Origin: a virus
IMG/VR virus record: IMGVR_UViG_3300032241_002567
Location: 79,837 to 143,836 of that record
DNA: 64,000 nt
Reading direction: 5' to 3' (one strand)
Below the pieces are notes generated by a model. It did no database searches. It was not told the origin of the DNA and saw nothing but the letters and a program-made list of their open reading frames with translations. Shown in pieces: positions 12,041 to 61,726 of the stretch. Made by a program: the position numbers and the translations under genes. The stretch's first letter is position 1, and each line of letters starts with the position of its first letter.

Positions 12041-15000
12041 ATGACAATAGCCAAAAAGCAACAACAACAAGAAGAAAACAAGAAATTTATATTTACAACC
12101 AAAAATGTATCAGAAATTTCTGAACAAATGAGCGATGGTGTTATTATTAAAAGATACATGAATCCATGGTTTAAAGGTGAAGTTGGAGTTCGAAGATCTG
12201 GTATATCTTTTGGTATAACTCAAGATGAAGTGCAAGAATATATTAGATGTATGGATGACGTACAATATTTTGCAGAAAAATATTGTCAAATCAAAAGAGA
12301 AGATGGTTCTATTGGACCAATTAAATTAAGAGATTATCAAAAAGGTATATTAGATCTTTATAAAAATCCAAGAGTTATATTATGCGCCAGTCGTCAAAGT
12401 GGTAAGGCATTACGTGACAATTCCTATGTGTGGACCATTTATGGTAAGAAATTTATTTCTGATTTAAAAGTGGGAGAAAAAATATTTGGGGATGATGGTA
12501 AATTAACTACAGTCACCGGAGTATTTCCACAGGGCAAAAAACAGCTTTATAAAATAACATTCTCGGATAATACATCAGTTGAATGTTGTGGTGAACATCT
12601 TTGGGGATTATATAACCATGAAAGAATTTATAAAGTTATGCAATTAAATGATTTTAAAGATAACTATTTAACTAAAAGAGGGGATAGTAAATTTTACACA
12701 AAAGTAGCACCTTGTGTTGAATATGAAACGAAAGAGTTGAAAATAGATCCTTATTTTTTAGGGTTATTAATTGGTGATGGTGGTATTTCAAATAAAGGAA
12801 ATTATATAACATCAATAGATGAATCAATTATAAATTATTGTAGAGAAGAGGTAAAAAATTATAATTGTGAATTAGTTTTATCAGATAGATGTACATATAG
12901 AATAACCACTTTAACTAAAGGTAAAAACAATATATTAACTGGGTTATTAGATGAATTTAATTTAAAAGTTAAATCATACGAAAAACATATTCCAAATATT
13001 TATTTAACTTCGGATAAATCACAAAGAATTCAATTATTACAAGGTTTAATGGATACTGATGGTTGCGTTGATTCAAAAAAAGGTGGTGTTGAATTTTGCA
13101 CCACTTCCAAACAATTATCTATTGATTTTGTTGAATTATGCAATTCTCTTGGTATAAAAACATCAGCAACTACAAGACAAACTTCATTTACCTATAAAGG
13201 TGAAAAAAAATTAGGTAGATTGTCATATCTTATAAAAATGTATGTTAATAACACCGATTTTAATATCTTTAAATTAGAGAGAAAAAATGTCAATGTTAGA
13301 AAAGATAAAAAATTTAATTTGGCAACATATAGAGGTATTGAAAAAATTGAAAAAATTGAAATTGATAATTGTACATGCATTTCAGTGGACAATAAAAGTA
13401 AATTATTTTTAACAAATAATTTTATACCAACACATAATACAATCAATGCGGCAATCTCAATTTTGCATTTTATTACTTTTAATAATGATAAAAATGTCAT
13501 GATTGTGGCAAATCTTCGTGATACTACTATCGAAATTGTAGATAAGATAAAATCTATTTATGTTAATTTACCTTTCTTTTTAAAAGTAGGTATTAAAAAC
13601 TGGAATCAAAAATCTATGGTTTGCGAAAATGGATGTAAAATTAGAACAGCTGCGAGAAGTAAAGCTCCTGCGATTGGTTTTACAATTGACTTCCTTTATT
13701 TGGACGAATTTGCGCATATTCCATCGAATATTATTGAGCCTTATTATACAGCAGTTTATCCTATCGTATCAGCGGTTAATAATTCTAAGATAGTTATAAC
13801 ATCAACCCCAAAGGGTATGAATTTATTTTATAAATTATTAATAGATTCAGAAAGAGATGAATTAGATCCTTTAAAAACTAATTTTAAATCAAAAAGAATA
13901 TATTGGTATGAAGTAGAAGGAAGATTTGTCACATATTTTCGTTTATTTGATAATAAATTATTTGAATATGGTTTAACAAAAGAAGATGTTTTTGAACAGG
14001 TTAAAGCAGCATTTCCACAAACTAAAGTTGAAATGAAATGGATAGCTGATTTAGAAAAACATGTAATTCATATTTATAATAAACATGAAGGTATCATTAC
14101 ACCGTCAGAAGATGTCAAAAAATTCATGGTTGAAAAAGACGATAAACAAATATTTATTCAACAACTTGCATATGTAACTACTTGGCAAGAAGAAACAATA
14201 AAAGAAATTGGTGGCGAAGATGCCTTTAACCAAGAATATGGATTGAGATTTGTTGATGGCTCGCGTTCGTTGTTGAGCGAGGCATTAATCGATGATTTAT
14301 TAAAAAATAAAAAACCTTATATACATTATCCTTCTTATGAATTTGATAGAAAATTGAAGTTTAATTATGAAGATTTAAAGTTTGTTGATGATACTTCAAT
14401 ATTTTCTCCACTTGATAGGAAAAAAATGAAAATTATTTTATCAGTAGATATATCAGAAGGATTAGGACAAGATTATTCAGTAATTAATATGTTTAGAATT
14501 ACACCAAAACCAATCGAAACAATTGAAAATTATAAAAGGGAATATAAATATTTATCTGACTTTTTTCATTTACAACAATTTGGTATATATAGATCAAACC
14601 TTGTATCTGTAAGACAATTGGCGGAATTGTTTTATGTATTATCTTTTGAGTATTTTGATCCAGAAAATGTTAAAGCAGTAGTAGAATATAATACTTATGG
14701 AGGACAATTTTTAGCGGAAATGCCACATCTATTTGATGGTAATAATAATTACGGTTCTGGAATATTTTTCCGTTATAAACATAGAATAGACTCAGAAGAA
14801 GAAAAAATAGGTTTAAGAATTACTAGTAATAAAGAATTTTTAGTTAAGGATTATCAGGAACATATGAATAAAAGAAATTTTGAAATTAATAATGCAACAA
14901 ATATAAATGAAATAACCACATTTATAAAACATGTATTGCCTTCTGGAAATATAAGATATGCGGCTGATACTGGTAATGATGATACAGTAATGACTATTGT

Positions 15001-15235
15001 AAATGCATCAAGTGTTTTTTCAAAATTTATATTTAGAGAAATGGTAGAATCCGCAGCAGTCGAATTAGTTGATGCTAATACAATTAAATATTTTAATGAT
15101 ATTTTAAAAAATCAAGAGTATCCTGATTATGATAAGGCGGATTATTCTGCTCTAAATAATATAACTAGACAAAGAAAATTTGTAAATCAATACGGTAATA
15201 AAAATACTTATGGTGGACAAAATAATTGGTTTTAA
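12041..15235 (+). CDS. Terminase large subunit (gp17-like) with an intein in Walker A
   Basis: ATP-driven DNA packaging motor and headful nuclease. Of 1064 residues, 344 are an intein, leaving an extein of ~720. The ATPase half has Walker A C-A-S-R-Q-S-G-K(122) joined after splicing to T467, Walker B FLYLDEFAHIP (D555, E556) and the coupling motif TSTPKG. The nuclease half has the RNase H-like acidic residues D803 (SVDISEG), E882 (VVEYNTYGG) and D980/D981 (ADTGNDD). Splicing is obligatory because the intein splits the P-loop Lys-Thr pair. The ATG lies downstream of an ATATATAT box shared with the divergent gene. Confidence 0.95.
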   Translation: MTIAKKQQQQEENKKFIFTTKNVSEISEQMSDGVIIKRYMNPWFKGEVGVRRSGISFGITQDEVQEYIRCMDDVQYFAEKYCQIKREDGSIGPIKLRDYQKGILDLYKNPRVILCASRQSGKALRDNSYVWTIYGKKFISDLKVGEKIFGDDGKLTTVTGVFPQGKKQLYKITFSDNTSVECCGEHLWGLYNHERIYKVMQLNDFKDNYLTKRGDSKFYTKVAPCVEYETKELKIDPYFLGLLIGDGGISNKGNYITSIDESIINYCREEVKNYNCELVLSDRCTYRITTLTKGKNNILTGLLDEFNLKVKSYEKHIPNIYLTSDKSQRIQLLQGLMDTDGCVDSKKGGVEFCTTSKQLSIDFVELCNSLGIKTSATTRQTSFTYKGEKKLGRLSYLIKMYVNNTDFNIFKLERKNVNVRKDKKFNLATYRGIEKIEKIEIDNCTCISVDNKSKLFLTNNFIPTHNTINAAISILHFITFNNDKNVMIVANLRDTTIEIVDKIKSIYVNLPFFLKVGIKNWNQKSMVCENGCKIRTAARSKAPAIGFTIDFLYLDEFAHIPSNIIEPYYTAVYPIVSAVNNSKIVITSTPKGMNLFYKLLIDSERDELDPLKTNFKSKRIYWYEVEGRFVTYFRLFDNKLFEYGLTKEDVFEQVKAAFPQTKVEMKWIADLEKHVIHIYNKHEGIITPSEDVKKFMVEKDDKQIFIQQLAYVTTWQEETIKEIGGEDAFNQEYGLRFVDGSRSLLSEALIDDLLKNKKPYIHYPSYEFDRKLKFNYEDLKFVDDTSIFSPLDRKKMKIILSVDISEGLGQDYSVINMFRITPKPIETIENYKREYKYLSDFFHLQQFGIYRSNLVSVRQLAELFYVLSFEYFDPENVKAVVEYNTYGGQFLAEMPHLFDGNNNYGSGIFFRYKHRIDSEEEKIGLRITSNKEFLVKDYQEHMNKRNFEINNATNINEITTFIKHVLPSGNIRYAADTGNDDTVMTIVNASSVFSKFIFREMVESAAVELVDANTIKYFNDILKNQEYPDYDKADYSALNNITRQRKFVNQYGNKNTYGGQNNWF
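12407..13438 (+). mobile_element. Class 3-type intein with LAGLIDADG endonuclease (within terminase)
   Basis: In-frame intein, residues 123-466 of the terminase. Its first residue is Ala (ALRDNSYV), not Cys or Ser. It ends T-H-N before extein Thr467. Block B reads C-G-E-H-L-W (H186, W188), block F reads C-T-C-I-S-V with Cys446 at the position normally Asp, and block G has Thr464 before His465-Asn466. W188, C446 and T464 correspond to the WCT triad that defines class 3 inteins, in which an internal Cys replaces the first-residue nucleophile. Two LAGLIDADG motifs (FLGLLIGDGG at 239-248 and LLQGLMDTDG at 332-341) mark a homing endonuclease. Confidence 0.93.
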
Positions 15236-15514
15236 TTATAATTCTTCTAAAGTCGTAGTTAAACCACAAGCGGATAATTTTTCATTTATTACATACATTT
15301 TATCTTTTGAGCCTCTTTTAACATCACATTTACCTTTAAAGTGTATTAAAAAAGTGCATTGTTCCGCTTGCTGTAATTCATGTCCAGCGTATTTCATAAG
15401 ACAATCTATTACATAGTCAAAACTATGCACGTCATCATTCCAAACAATGACGGCGTAAACACCACCTATTATTTCATCTAATTCTGAGGTTTCTAATTCT
15501 TTAGTTTGAGGCAT
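15236..15514 (-). CDS. clpS: ClpS-like protease adaptor
   Basis: A 92-residue homologue of ClpS, the adaptor that hands N-degron substrates to ClpAP/ClpCP. The N-degron pocket residues are visible: N26-D27-D28 (VIVWNDDVHSFDYV) and H58 in FLIHFKGKCDV. The gatekeeper position held by Met40 in E. coli ClpS appears to be Phe32 here. The length is close to bacterial ClpS. It converges on the terminase gene with no gap, and its start overlaps the upstream UVR-motif gene by 14 nt, so the two are co-translated. The phage protein may redirect or block host N-end-rule degradation; the direction of the effect cannot be read from sequence. Confidence 0.85.
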   Translation of the reverse strand: MPQTKELETSELDEIIGGVYAVIVWNDDVHSFDYVIDCLMKYAGHELQQAEQCTFLIHFKGKCDVKRGSKDKMYVINEKLSACGLTTTLEEL

Positions 15515-15926
15515 TTTCTAATTTTTTAATTTCTTCGTTTAATAAATTAGCAAGTTCGTAATTTTCTTTATTAATAGCATTTTGCATTTCTTTTTCTAAA
15601 TCTTTTTTGGATTTATTTTTATTTTTGATTTTATGTTCATTTTTTATATTTAATAAAATAAAATCACGAAATATTTCAGATTCGTAAGATTTTACAAAAC
15701 TAATTTGATTACCTTCAACATTTTGATAAAACCATATTTTTTTAGATATAGGGTCATTATTAAAAATTGTAATGGTTATTACTTGATCTTTATATTTTTC
15801 TCCTCCTATACTAGTATAGAATCCATTAGGTGTATAAATATTAATTTTATCACCACTATAAAGTTTTTTCAAATTTTTAGTCTTTCTTATTTCTTTCAAA
15901 GAAAAAATTTTTTTTAAAAATTTCAT
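15501..15926 (-). CDS. Small protein with a C-terminal UVR motif
   Basis: A 141-residue protein. The N-terminus is basic (MKFLKKIFSLKEIRKTK), the middle is beta-rich, and residues ~105-138 (DLEKEMQNAINKENYELA, NLLNEEIKKLE) match the UVR motif found in UvrB/UvrC and in Clp-associated proteins such as McsA and ClpC. Because it overlaps the clpS start by 14 nt, a Clp-related role is the more attractive reading. No UvrC nuclease or UvrB helicase domain is present. Confidence 0.7.
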   Translation of the reverse strand: MKFLKKIFSLKEIRKTKNLKKLYSGDKINIYTPNGFYTSIGGEKYKDQVITITIFNNDPISKKIWFYQNVEGNQISFVKSYESEIFRDFILLNIKNEHKIKNKNKSKKDLEKEMQNAINKENYELANLLNEEIKKLENASN

Positions 15927-18069: not shown

Positions 18070-18140
18070 TATTTGAATTTTAAATAAAAAAGTCGCTTAA
18101 TTGAGCGACTTTTTTATTTAAAATTCAAATATTAAACTGG
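18061..18140. terminator. Bidirectional terminator with very long arms spanning both stop codons
   Basis: Perfect inverted repeat with arms of about 37 nt (18061-18097 / 18104-18140) and a GTCGCT/AGCGAC core. The arms include the last codons and stops of both convergent genes, so both proteins end in Pro-Val encoded by mirror-image sequence. Confidence 0.9.
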
Positions 18141-19259
18141 TACATTTACTGGTACTAAAATAGTTTGTATAATTCTATCAATAATTTCATATGGATCACC
18201 ATTAGAAGCAGGACGTCTATCTTCTAAATAACCTGGTGTTATAACATCTTCAATTGAAGAAGGTATTCTAATAGACGCAGTTCTATCACCTATACCATAT
18301 CTATATTCATTAATAGAACAAGTTTCATTAGCACCAGTTAAACGATGTTCATTATTTATGCCATAAACTGCGATATGTTCGGTGATTTTAGTTCCTAATT
18401 TTTCACAAGCTTCTATAACTAACGACTTTTTATTTTTTAAATCGGTTCTCATAGTTTTAGTTGAGAAATTGACATGCATACCTGAACCATTCCAATCATT
18501 TCCTTTAATAGGCTTTGGATCTAACACTATATAATAGTTATACTTTTCAGATAATCTTTCTAATATATATCTCGAAACCCATAACTGGTCAGCACCTTCT
18601 TTAGCTGGCACTGGTCCAATTTGGTATTCCCATTGACCCAAAGCTACTTCAGCATTTATACCAGAAATTTTTAATTCAGCATATTCACATAATTCAGCAT
18701 GTTCTTCAACAAATGCTCTACCTGCAACATTTCTGCCACCAACTGCACAATAATATGGTCCTTGTGGTCTTGCTGGTGTGGTAATTTTTTCACTGTATGG
18801 ATTGTTTACTGGCCATCCTAATGGTTTATTTGTATTACAATCATAAATAAAATATTCCTGTTCCAATCCATACATAGTTTCATCATCATATTTATCTAAT
18901 GTTTCAACCATTTTTGCTCTTTTATTTGTTGAGTGAGGTGTCATGTCGGTATTATATACTTCCGACATAACGATGAAGCCATTTTCTTTAAATGGATTTT
19001 TGAATATATTAACTGGTTTAAGTAATAATTCTGATTTAGAAGTTTCTGCTTGATCTGTTGAAGAGCCATCAAAGTTCCATAAAGGAAGTGTTTCTGGATT
19101 TTTTTTCCAATCTTGAAATAATGATTTTAATGAAATTGCATCTATTTTTAGTGTATTAATATCCAATTTTTTTTCGATAATTTTTGTTTTTGAACGGATT
19201 TGTTGTGGATATGAACCATCAAGCCAAATATATTCTAAATAAATGTTTTTGTTTACCAT
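18132..19259 (-). CDS. glnII: Type II glutamine synthetase
   Basis: ATP-dependent ligation of ammonia to glutamate. The 375-residue length fits GSII, the family of eukaryotes and some bacteria, not the ~450-residue GSI. Visible landmarks: LEYIWLDG near the N-terminus, LPLWNFDGSSTDQA, GLEQEYFIYD (metal-binding glutamates), VEEHAELCEYAELKISGINAE, GQWEYQIGP, WNGSGMHVNFSTKTMR, RLTGANET, DRTASIRIP and YLEDRRPAS. All catalytic blocks are present, so the enzyme should be active. It is divergent from an RHH gene, with a 16-bp inverted repeat between the two starts that is a candidate operator. A phage-borne GS would supply glutamine for nucleotide synthesis or disturb host nitrogen sensing. Confidence 0.96.
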   Translation of the reverse strand: MVNKNIYLEYIWLDGSYPQQIRSKTKIIEKKLDINTLKIDAISLKSLFQDWKKNPETLPLWNFDGSSTDQAETSKSELLLKPVNIFKNPFKENGFIVMSEVYNTDMTPHSTNKRAKMVETLDKYDDETMYGLEQEYFIYDCNTNKPLGWPVNNPYSEKITTPARPQGPYYCAVGGRNVAGRAFVEEHAELCEYAELKISGINAEVALGQWEYQIGPVPAKEGADQLWVSRYILERLSEKYNYYIVLDPKPIKGNDWNGSGMHVNFSTKTMRTDLKNKKSLVIEACEKLGTKITEHIAVYGINNEHRLTGANETCSINEYRYGIGDRTASIRIPSSIEDVITPGYLEDRRPASNGDPYEIIDRIIQTILVPVNVPV

Positions 19260-30970: not shown

Positions 30971-31651
30971 ATGGGAGATTTAATCAAAATAGTTAAGCAT
31001 GAATATCCTAATTTAGCAGAGAGCTATAAAGAAAATACTATGTTTTTTTATGATGCTTATCAAAAAAATTCTGCAGATGTAACTAATATAAATGTTGGTA
31101 AAATGCAATTAGGAGCATTTTATTTCCTTCAATATCAAGATGATTCAAATTGGATGCAATACTCACCAATTTTTACAGTAGATTTTAGAAAATTTGGTGA
31201 TATGATTATAATTCTCGCTGTCAATTTAAATTTTATACCTTTACAAGTCAGAGTTACAATTTTTGATAAATATATCACCGAAAAAGATTTAGAATCTAAT
31301 ACTTTATTTGATACGAATTATGAAAGTGTTTATAAATCATTTTTACAATATGGTTACGAATATGCAATAGTTGAATATAATATGAAACAAATTAAATTCG
31401 TACATAAAATTAAAAATTCTTTAATTCCAAAATTTTTATATTCTGGATTTCCAAAGAACAAATATGACCCAATAAAACTATATAGCATTTGGAAAACAAA
31501 ACTCAAAACCAGAGATAAAAGACATCAAGAAATGATGAACGCAGATATAAAAGATTTTTATGATACAGAGAATGAAATATTAAACGATTATAAAGCGCTG
31601 GAAAGCCATATTGATAGAATAAGAAAAAGTTATGGAAAATATGGAAAATAA
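30971..31651 (+). CDS. Conserved phage protein, probable structural
   Basis: A 226-residue protein. The N-terminal half is beta-rich with KMQLGAFYFLQYQDD, YSPIFTVDFRKFG and LAVNLNFIPLQVRV. The arrangement (short aromatic strand, proline-rich turn, 'hNhxFIP' block) is like a conserved virion-associated family of T4-like phages whose exact role I cannot recall. The C-terminus is a helical tail. Divergent from gp4 and preceded by an ATATATTAAATATATAA box. Confidence 0.6.
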   Translation: MGDLIKIVKHEYPNLAESYKENTMFFYDAYQKNSADVTNINVGKMQLGAFYFLQYQDDSNWMQYSPIFTVDFRKFGDMIIILAVNLNFIPLQVRVTIFDKYITEKDLESNTLFDTNYESVYKSFLQYGYEYAIVEYNMKQIKFVHKIKNSLIPKFLYSGFPKNKYDPIKLYSIWKTKLKTRDKRHQEMMNADIKDFYDTENEILNDYKALESHIDRIRKSYGKYGK

Positions 31652-32582
31652 TATTTTTGGATTAAATACTAATTTAGATGATTCAGAATTAGTTTTAATA
31701 TCAGTGCCTTGGGAAACAACAGTTTCTTACAGAAAAGGCACATCTAATGGGCCTAAATTTATTCTACAAGCTTCACCACAAGTAGACATGTTTGATCCAG
31801 ATTTTCACAATTCTAATAATAGTTTTTATATGCTTCCTATAAATGAAGATATGAGATTATTTTCGTTGGAATTACAAAATTTTACAGAGACAAATAAAAA
31901 TATAGTAAATGAAGGTTGTCAAAAAATGGTTAATTGGGTGTATGAAGAAACAAAAAAATATTTACCACTAAAAAAAATTGGATTAATAGGTGGTGAACAC
32001 AGTATATCTTTGGGTTATATAAAGGCTCTGTCAGAATTACATAATTTTGGCATATTACAGATAGATTCTCATTGTGATTTAAGAAATTCTTATAATGGTT
32101 TAATATACTCTCACGCTTCTATTATGCATAATGTTTTAAAAATTAAAGAGGTTACTAAATTAGTTCAAGTTGGTATAAGAGATTATTCTAAATCTGAATT
32201 TGAAACGATTCAAAATTCCGATGGAAGAATTATTACTTTTTTTGATAATGATATAAAAGATACTATTTATAAAGGGGCAAATTGGCATTCAATATGTCAA
32301 GAAATAATAGATTGCCTTCCTTATAAAGTTTATATAAGTTTTGATATAGATGGTTTAGATCCAAAATTATGCCCTGATACCGGAACACCAGTTCCTGGTG
32401 GATTTGACATGTATCAAATTTTTTATTTATTAAAATTATTAAAAGAATCGGGTAAAAGAATTATTGGATTTGATTTAAATGAAGTTAGCAATGGAAATTA
32501 TTCGGATGATACGATCAATTCAATAACTGGTGCTCGTGTTTTATATAAATTATGCAATTTATTATGCAATTCAGACAAATAA
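31632..32582 (+). CDS. Agmatinase/arginase-family ureohydrolase
   Basis: A 316-residue manganese enzyme of the arginase/agmatinase fold, which releases urea from agmatine, arginine or similar guanidino compounds. Metal ligands are visible: H123 in GGEHSIS, D145/H147/D149 in IDSHCDL (the usual DAHxD with Ala changed to Ser), and D238/D240 in SFDIDGLDP. The substrate-loop PDTGTPVPGG is of the agmatinase type. It starts within the preceding gene (20-nt overlap) and is followed by an overlapping GNAT gene. Putrescine from agmatine could neutralise phage DNA, but the substrate is inferred. Confidence 0.9.
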   Translation: MENMENNIFGLNTNLDDSELVLISVPWETTVSYRKGTSNGPKFILQASPQVDMFDPDFHNSNNSFYMLPINEDMRLFSLELQNFTETNKNIVNEGCQKMVNWVYEETKKYLPLKKIGLIGGEHSISLGYIKALSELHNFGILQIDSHCDLRNSYNGLIYSHASIMHNVLKIKEVTKLVQVGIRDYSKSEFETIQNSDGRIITFFDNDIKDTIYKGANWHSICQEIIDCLPYKVYISFDIDGLDPKLCPDTGTPVPGGFDMYQIFYLLKLLKESGKRIIGFDLNEVSNGNYSDDTINSITGARVLYKLCNLLCNSDK

Positions 32583-60278: not shown

Positions 60279-60495
60279 ACCGAGGGCTAGACATACTATA
60301 TATTTTCGCCCTGATAAAGACGATGATTGGTTTATCTTTATATATCATACAGATAAAAATGGTAAATCAAGAAAAAGAATGATTATACAAAAAGATATGG
60401 ATATGTTTCTCAATGATTATATAAATGATGGTTGGATTATATCTTCCGGAGAAGAAACAATAAAAAACCCAGCAAAATCTAATAAAAAGAAGTAA
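60256..60495 (+). CDS. Small hypothetical protein
   Basis: A 79-residue protein starting MKEIILTKPRARHTIYF. A longer frame from 60211 lies inside the preceding gene and is ignored. It contains FRPDKDDDWFIFIYHTDKNG and ends with a Lys-rich tail. It overlaps the preceding gene by 23 nt. Not recognised. Confidence 0.62.
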   Translation: MKEIILTKPRARHTIYFRPDKDDDWFIFIYHTDKNGKSRKRMIIQKDMDMFLNDYINDGWIISSGEETIKNPAKSNKKK

Positions 60496-60528
60496 TTTCA
60501 ATATATAATATAAATATGTGAAGAAAAT

Positions 60529-60559
60529 TTTGTTATTTCAAAACTTCTTTGTATATTTG
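60529..60559 (+). promoter_or_regulatory. Host-type (Bacteroidota) promoter of the tmRNA gene
   Basis: TTTG (60529-60532), 19-nt spacer, TATATTTG (60552-60559): exact TTTG-N19-TAnnTTTG, 16 nt before the tmRNA 5' end. Confidence 0.85.
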
Positions 60560-60575
60560 TTATAAAATAACACTT

Positions 60576-60927
60576 GGGGCTGATTTGATTAGACTGATAG
60601 TTCTGAAGTAAGTTATGATGCAAGCATCGGTGGTTGTATCCGATTAATAAGAAGCAATAAACAATAAATGCAAACGAAATTGCAACTAGCGAAGATTTAT
60701 CTTTCGCTTTAACGAACAACTTGATCAACGAAGTGGCTTTCGCCTAACTGTGAAACAGGTGACTCTGTTTTAAAAAAGTCAAAGAGTGGTTACTTAATAA
60801 CTTGCTAATTTTCTGATTTTTAGCATAAAATAAATTGGATATTTTGACTATTTAGAAAAATATTCTAAGCTTGTGAAAGAATAGTTTAAGTCAGCTAGCA
60901 ACACCCGGTTCGAAACCGGCAGCTCCA
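60576..60927 (+). ncRNA. ssrA: Transfer-messenger RNA (tmRNA)
   Basis: A 352-nt tmRNA. The 5' GGGGCUG pairs with CAGCUCC before the discriminator A at 60927, giving a 7-bp acceptor stem with the G3-U70 wobble that specifies alanine. CCGGTTCGAAACCGG near the 3' end is the T arm. The 3' CCA is not encoded. The best tag frame resumes at GCA (60670) as A-N-E-I-A-T-S-E-D-L and runs about 25 codons, ending N-E-V-A-F-A before TAA. That is longer than the usual ~9-15-residue tag and ends in AFA, as in mycoplasma tags. No SmpB gene is seen in the window, so host SmpB is probably used. Confidence 0.93.
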
Positions 60928-60928
60928 C

Positions 60929-60960
60929 AAAAAGACACTCAAAATTGAGTGTCTTTTTTT
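60929..60960 (+). terminator. Intrinsic terminator of the tmRNA gene
   Basis: AAAAGACACTCAA / TTGAGTGTCTTTTTTTT hairpin directly after the tmRNA 3' end. Confidence 0.87.
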
Positions 60961-60973
60961 TATATATACTATT

Positions 60974-61726
60974 ATGAGGTATATAAAATTTTTTGAAGAT
61001 TTTAATTATATTGTTGATGATGATTCAGAAGCAACTTTAAAGAGAGCTTTTGCTCGCCCAAAAGATGTCAATATAGATTTTGATTTAGAATATATTAAGT
61101 ATGCTAAAAGATTAGCAAAAGTAAAAAAATCTGATCCAAAATATACACTACAGGTTAAAGCAAAAGATGTAATGTCAGAAGGAATTATATCTATTCCAAA
61201 GGGAATATTTATAGTTTTAAATGATTTTAAATTTGGAAAATCTCTTTTTAAGAAAGATTCTATTATTGAATCAGATGGATTTGGTAATCTTACTATCACA
61301 AATACAGATGGAACTAGTGAAACAAAAAAAGCAAAAGGACCCAAGAGAGGATTTGAAAGATTTTATTTAAATTTTTATGCAAATACTAAAAGAAAAGAAG
61401 ATAAAATCAGTCCATTTACACGAAAAGAAAAAGATTTAATTAATTTTATTTATTCAAATAAAAATAAAGCTTCAAAAGAAGAAATAACAAATTTTTTACA
61501 GGGGTTCGCCACAACCGCAGAAACCGAATTAGAACCAAGAAAATTGAAAATATATCGTGATGCTTTTATTTATGAAATAAATAAAAAGTTTAGAGAATCT
61601 GGATTAGGAACAGATAATTTGATTTTATTACCAACAGGAATGAAAGGCACTTCAAAAGGACAGGCTAAAGAATTTGATTATAAAATAAATCCTGATTATC
61701 TTAATATTATTAAGACCTTAATATAA
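60974..61726 (+). CDS. Tagged hypothetical protein, possible packaged protein
   Basis: A 250-residue basic protein. MRYIKFFEDF is a clear copy of the shared tag, and no close (I/L)xE site follows. The body contains DVMSEGIISIPKGIFIVLND and a KRGFERFYLNFYANTKRKED segment, with no family recognised. An exact TATATACT box ends 3 nt before the ATG, so the message would be leaderless if that box is used. Confidence 0.75.
   Translation: MRYIKFFEDFNYIVDDDSEATLKRAFARPKDVNIDFDLEYIKYAKRLAKVKKSDPKYTLQVKAKDVMSEGIISIPKGIFIVLNDFKFGKSLFKKDSIIESDGFGNLTITNTDGTSETKKAKGPKRGFERFYLNFYANTKRKEDKISPFTRKEKDLINFIYSNKNKASKEEITNFLQGFATTAETELEPRKLKIYRDAFIYEINKKFRESGLGTDNLILLPTGMKGTSKGQAKEFDYKINPDYLNIIKTLI

Follow-up and report, generated by a model that had tools for sequence, protein, structure and literature searches.

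In this study, we found that a huge-phage contig carries a one-piece tmRNA (ssrA) gene with a long tag, and that, judging from related phages, this long tag is a family trait selected at the protein level. The stretch analyzed here (the window, 64,000 nt) is the final part of a 143,836-bp IMG/VR contig, which is itself a fragment. The presence of the tmRNA gene at positions 60576–60930 was confirmed. We consider the chances about even that it serves trans-translation with a phage-specific degron that would be read by phage Clp proteins; the activity of the tmRNA, the tagging, and the identity of the tag-reading protease are all predictions from sequence.

In a permissive search of 60300–61100, RF00023 matched positions 60576–60930 of the plus strand through model positions 1–374, which is a full-length match, with an E value of 6.5e-15 and a score of 41.2 bits, below the gathering score of 47 bits. 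In the whole-contig search, the E value of the tmRNA was 2.8e-16. Neither Rfam at the gathering threshold nor ARAGORN reported a tmRNA in the 64-kb window. The RF00023 cut-off was exceeded by the homologous tmRNAs of two relatives, the 465-kb phage G033 and LR756504. The parts of the gene are as follows.

60552–60559, plus strand: TATATTTG, a -7 promoter element (TAnnTTTG), 24 nt upstream of the tmRNA
60576–60930, plus strand: one-piece tmRNA (ssrA), RF00023 full-length, with the 3' CCA incompletely encoded (..CTCC-A-CA)
60576–60582, plus strand: 5' strand of the acceptor stem, GGGGCTG, with its partner CAGCTCC at 60920–60926, read directly
60626–60658, plus strand: pseudoknot 1, two stems read by hand, whose homologous helices covary in relatives
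60670–60747, plus strand: tag reading frame ANEIATSEDLSFALTNNLINEVAFA, 25 codons from the resume codon GCA, with the stop codon TAA at 60745–60747
60840–60876, plus strand: motif of the pseudoknot 4 region, TATTTTG..GAAAAA..TAAG.TTGTG, which served to find the family
60905–60929, plus strand: T arm with loop TTCGAAA (60909–60915), the acceptor 3' strand (60920–60926) and discriminator A (60927), read directly
60931–60962, plus strand: intrinsic terminator, hairpin GACACTCAA/TTGAGTGTC and then a T run, read directly

The earlier note on this DNA had described a complete ssrA gene with G3-U70, T arm, promoter and terminator, and both the full-length match and our direct reading agree with that description. 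The acceptor stem has 7 bp including the alanine identity pair G3-U70 (60578–60924), and the stem of the T arm has 4 bp (CCGG/CCGG) and one outer mismatch, so that the T arm is slightly degenerate. In pseudoknot 1, which precedes the resume codon, stem 1 is formed by ATCGG (60626–60630) and CCGAT (60640–60644), and stem 2 by GTTGT (60633–60637) and GCAAT (60654–60658), the latter being GTTGC/GCAAC in the relative L108. Among 14 relatives, this pseudoknot showed 15 double-change cells with compensatory changes, compared with 3.7 ± 1.8 in shuffles (0/500), and its positions were 92% paired, compared with 21–51% when the helices were slid. The folding z-score of the whole RNA was weak (-1.67) and was therefore left out as evidence. 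The sequence TAnnTTTG, which we take to be a Bacteroidota-type -7 element fitting a Bacteroidota sigma factor, lies upstream of the tmRNA in 15 of the 25 distinct relatives, whereas 0.9 was expected by shuffling. The score under the Rfam cut-off, the ARAGORN miss and the T-stem mismatch could all be read as signs of a decaying or inactive remnant. We consider such a remnant very improbable, because the pseudoknot covaries, the frame is open and conserved, promoter and terminator are in place, and all six full-size phage genomes examined have a tmRNA. The covariation of pseudoknot 1 and the conserved tag frame show that structure and frame are not due to chance, and the RNA is very probably functional.

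The covariance model aligned UGCaAACgA to ..AUGCAAACGA.. and placed the resume codon GCA at 60670. It could have set this codon elsewhere and yielded a short tag; the placement gave exactly the tag of about 25 codons that had been deduced before. Bacteroidota ssrA tags are about 10 amino acids long and end in LAA or MAA. The contig's tag has 25 amino acids and ends in AFA, so the lack of an LAA end was read correctly, and so was the unusual length, the measured factor being about 2.5.

RF00023 also found tmRNAs in LR756500 (W05), LR756504 (W03), LR756501 (W04, 735 kb), Lak-B5 (W06) and four contigs, and those of LR756502 (W01) and LR745206 (W02) were added by motif and BLAST. A direct DNA search of phage records with the window tmRNA as query gave no useful near relatives, and relatives were reached instead through relatives of the major capsid protein and the motif. 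In viral sequence, the scan with the pseudoknot 4 motif gave at least 118 matching stretches. Related tmRNAs are present in no fewer than 117 viral contigs, which is a lower bound on the size of the family, and a recognizable family tag was present in 108 of the 117 motif matches analyzed. A search of 257 Gb of genome sequence from 84,980 bacterial and archaeal species with the same motif gave five matches, none of them a tmRNA, and the family is therefore confined to phages as far as the motif can tell.

The tags of the family mostly have 23–33 amino acids; their starts were set by a rule from the resume-codon context, which over-extended a few of them but had no effect on the selection tests, since these used trimmed cores. 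Group A (31 unique tags) has the consensus G-K/N-T-N-E-V-G/A-T/S-R/K-E-D-L-V-A-A-L-Q-N-N followed by a tail ending in E-L/V-x-x-A/V, and group B (23 unique tags) has ..T-F-T-F-E-D-A-M-S/A-F-V-G-A-D-Y-A-V-A-A. There are smaller groups too, and some phages have short tags (GNNAEMRMAA, DDEIEFRMAA and ANEADYGLALAA). In the NEV..EDLVAAL group, conservation lies in the interior and the C-termini vary: AFA ends 3 of the 31 group-A tags, and the others end in AVV, SLV, ELV, ATV, ETA, QFA and so on. An AA end occurs in 1/31 group-A tags compared with 22/23 group-B tags, and in 39 of the 75 unique family tags overall. An acidic-hydrophobic interior motif, E-D-x-x-[AS]-[AF], is common to otherwise different tags.

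The pooled pN/pS was 0.59 in frame versus 0.90 and 1.00 in the shifted frames for group A, and 0.32 versus 2.17 and 1.88 for group B; within group A, it was 0.50 in the interior versus 0.70 in the tail, so the interior is more constrained, and all of these ratios serve as description and not as tests of significance, because related sequence pairs are not independent. The third codon positions of the tag frame vary most. The tag sits within a structured RNA, and the frame might be long through RNA constraints alone, with the peptide sequence irrelevant. We give this idea hardly any weight, because in both groups the in-frame ratios lie well under those of the shifted frames and the third positions are the most variable.

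ARAGORN independently gave tags of 24–25 amino acids for the relatives L126, L158 and L180, and it missed the group-A relatives tried as well as the contig's tmRNA. The misses among the sister tmRNAs are probably due in part to non-canonical T loops: those of L107, L108, L109 and L110 (e.g., AGCAGTA and GTCAGTG) lack TTCRA, whereas the window has TTCGAAA, and charging or SmpB binding may consequently differ in these relatives. Since standard tools miss many phage tmRNAs, phage trans-translation is under-counted. Two annotated SsrA genes, L261 of crAssphage cr114_1 (NC_055897, 19180–19622) and L262 of Vibrio phage D51, are permuted-type ARAGORN calls lying over tRNA genes and were set aside as probable artefacts.

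The major capsid protein of the contig shares 67% identity with its counterpart in the 642-kb phage LR756502 and 29–65% with those of other huge phages, Lak included, and the contig comes from a Mahaphage-like huge phage. According to the accessible text of Al-Shayeb et al. 2020 (PMC7162821), the largest huge phages, namely the five that exceed 634 kb, belong to the Mahaphage clade together with the Lak phages, and Bacteroidetes are the predicted hosts of all of these. Some other genes of the window were also recorded. At 12041–15235 (plus strand), a T4-type terminase large subunit is split by an insert that resembles an intein and contains LAGLIDADG homing-endonuclease domains (PF14528, PF05204); the insert apparently lies in the Walker A region (..SRQSGK/ALRDNSYVW..IPTHN/TINAA..), and its first residue is Ala, not Cys or Ser. 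A phage-encoded glutamine synthetase (18132–19259, minus strand; PF00120, E 1.1e-15) and an arginase-family enzyme (31632–32582, plus strand; PF00491, E 8.2e-50) on one phage contig suggest a possible reprogramming of nitrogen metabolism.

We searched 16 records for the proteins that could act with the tag. SmpB is encoded by seven of them (W01, W02, W03, W04, W06, G033 and G044), including five of the six full-size genomes. ClpP is encoded by 12 (the present contig and 11 others), and its catalytic triad motifs are intact in all eight copies checked. Lon is encoded by none of the 16 phage records searched, and both ClpP and Lon were found in a Bacteroides control genome. On the present contig, a 143.8-kb fragment, the search turned up no SmpB and no unfoldase. 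The window encodes two candidate adaptor proteins.

15236–15514, minus strand: ClpS adaptor protein (Pfam PF02617, E 1.4e-16)
15501–15926, minus strand: UVR-motif protein (Pfam PF02151, E 6.5e-5), the motif being common to McsA/ClpC-type proteins

The two genes are adjacent and overlap (15236–15926, minus strand), and they are possibly a Clp adaptor pair; the UVR-motif protein is a possible part of the system. ClpS was found in the contig, W01, W02, W03 and G033, and was not found in W04 or in the short-tag phages W05 and W06.

ClpC-like double-AAA unfoldases are encoded by W01, W02 and G033, that of W01 carrying a UVR motif (Pfam). W03 encodes a double-AAA protein and ClpX, W06 encodes ClpX, and W04 encodes a Clp_N double-AAA protein. 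The ClpP-docking tripeptide [VIL]GF is present in all of these unfoldases except that of W04, with the form [VI]GF in W01, W02, W03 and G033. The G033 unfoldase was read in part only, owing to an intein-like insert; at L256 (G033 contig, 121230–121709 region), an intein-like C-terminal segment stands before the ClpC-like unfoldase (..YYTNGLLSHN/TQLAKVLAEHLF) in the Walker A region. SmpB, ClpP and a ClpP-docking unfoldase occur together with a long tag in W01, W02, W03 and G033, the exception being W04, which is the sole full-size genome without ClpP. In a sample of seven mutually related genomes, the long-tag phages other than W04 thus have ClpP, a docking-competent unfoldase and ClpS, and the short-tag W05 and W06 have no ClpS. 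W06 prompted the idea of a one-to-one link between the AA end and a ClpX-type unfoldase, which was dropped because two group-B contigs with tags ending in AVAA also encode double-AAA Clp proteins.

Studies have shown that tmRNA and SmpB free stalled ribosomes, that the tag directs proteolysis, and that E. coli ClpX recognizes the carboxylate and the last two alanines at the C-terminus (PMC7652416). We propose that the contig's tmRNA is a working member of the phage-confined family and would be charged with alanine during infection. SmpB of the phage or of the host would bring it to ribosomes stalled on broken mRNA, where it would append the long phage-specific peptide. This peptide may act as an extended degron whose interior is conserved (NEV..[RKS]EDLV.AL.NN) and whose C-terminus varies (E-[LV]-x-x-[AV] instead of the bacterial LAA), and it would most likely be read by phage Clp, that is, ClpP with a ClpC-like unfoldase and perhaps ClpS. 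Phage-tagged fragments would then be cleared independently of the host tag system. A private phage-Clp degron seems to us the simplest reading, because group A does without the AA end and its phages themselves supply ClpP together with ClpS and a ClpC-like unfoldase. The earlier suggestion that products might be routed to a different protease is consistent with phages that encode SmpB, ClpP, ClpS and ClpC- or ClpX-type unfoldases and with a tag without LAA. Against a phage-Clp reading, the fragmentary contig itself yielded no SmpB or unfoldase, W04 has a long tag without ClpP or ClpS, the AVAA ends of group-B tags might have host ClpX as reader, and phage ClpP or ClpS may have other roles.

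Host proteases (ClpXP, Lon or FtsH) could also degrade the long tag of a functional phage tmRNA, with phage Clp doing other jobs; the earlier Lon idea falls under this explanation. The 39 tags ending in AA, the ClpP and Lon of the Bacteroides control and the ability of the long AFA-ending tag of Mesoplasma florum to act as a Lon degron (PMC9097571, PMC3985003) speak for it. We nevertheless hold it to be unlikely, because group-A C-termini vary freely and lack the terminal Ala-Ala preferred by E. coli ClpX (PMC7652416), the M. florum tag resembles these tags about as closely as shuffled sequences do, and the conserved 16-residue interior would have no obvious reason. The non-canonical C-termini (AVV, SLV, ETV and ELV) and the interior motif kept across otherwise different tags could instead indicate a non-degradative or stabilizing tag, by which ribosomes are rescued and the products are protected or sequestered, or which serves other binding. 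This appears rather improbable to us, since keeping truncated proteins brings no evident benefit, the tag co-occurs with ClpP, ClpC and ClpS, and the C-termini are still small and hydrophobic.

Coming back to the degron read by phage Clp, the proteolytic machinery of the complete relatives suggests a private viral disposal route for failed proteins. We tentatively extend this, at somewhat less than an even chance, to an autonomous protein quality control of huge phages, in which their own tmRNA would write a private, extended degron, with a conserved interior and a drifting C-terminus, for phage ClpC-ClpP-ClpS and not for host ClpXP. Degron and protease would then form a viral pair that diverges from that of the host. 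If phage Clp proteases read the tags, some phages replace host quality control, and the natural tag-protease pairs would be useful for orthogonal protein degradation.

tmRNA and SmpB were already listed among huge-phage genes, in the same Mahaphage clade as the present contig, and the assignment of those tmRNAs relied on ARAGORN, a program that misses the contig's tmRNA and the group-A relatives tried here; the accessible text of that report (PMC7162821) contains no mention that we found of long tags, tag conservation or a Clp link. We found no description of the long-tag tmRNA family in the searchable literature, and the family and its Clp link appear to be new. Other phage-borne ssrA genes, namely the tmRNAs of mycobacteriophages (Bxz1-type, Wildcat) and Bacillus phage G and the TLD-only form of DS6A, belong to other phage lineages (PMC4131195). 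The current tmRNA database holds 79 phage sequences from RefSeq viruses, and its commonest tag length is 10 amino acids (PMC11915505).

The Mycoplasma/Mesoplasma tmRNA has a 27-residue AFA tag that is read by Lon (PMC3985003, PMC9097571), and this tag and that of the contig are both long, AFA-ending and non-LAA. In contrast, the phage family does not conserve the AFA end, and the phages encode no Lon in the records searched. The similarity of group-A tags to the M. florum tag gave uncorrected shuffle p values of 0.04–0.48, and for these three reasons we regard the resemblance as most likely coincidental. The mycoplasma/Lon kinship proposed earlier was therefore abandoned, and the rest of that interpretation (a phage tmRNA, a long tag without LAA and possibly another protease) was retained.

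Like the standard bacterial one-piece tmRNA (RF00023), the contig's tmRNA has the tRNA-like domain, G3-U70, pseudoknot 1, a resume codon and a tag frame; it differs in its tag of 25 instead of about 10 amino acids and in the missing LAA end. The phage family further differs in the T loops of the relatives, which deviate from TTCRA, and in the phage-specific motif of the pseudoknot 4 region. In bacteria, the LAA end of the tag is almost invariant, whereas one group of this large phage family drops LAA and conserves the interior.
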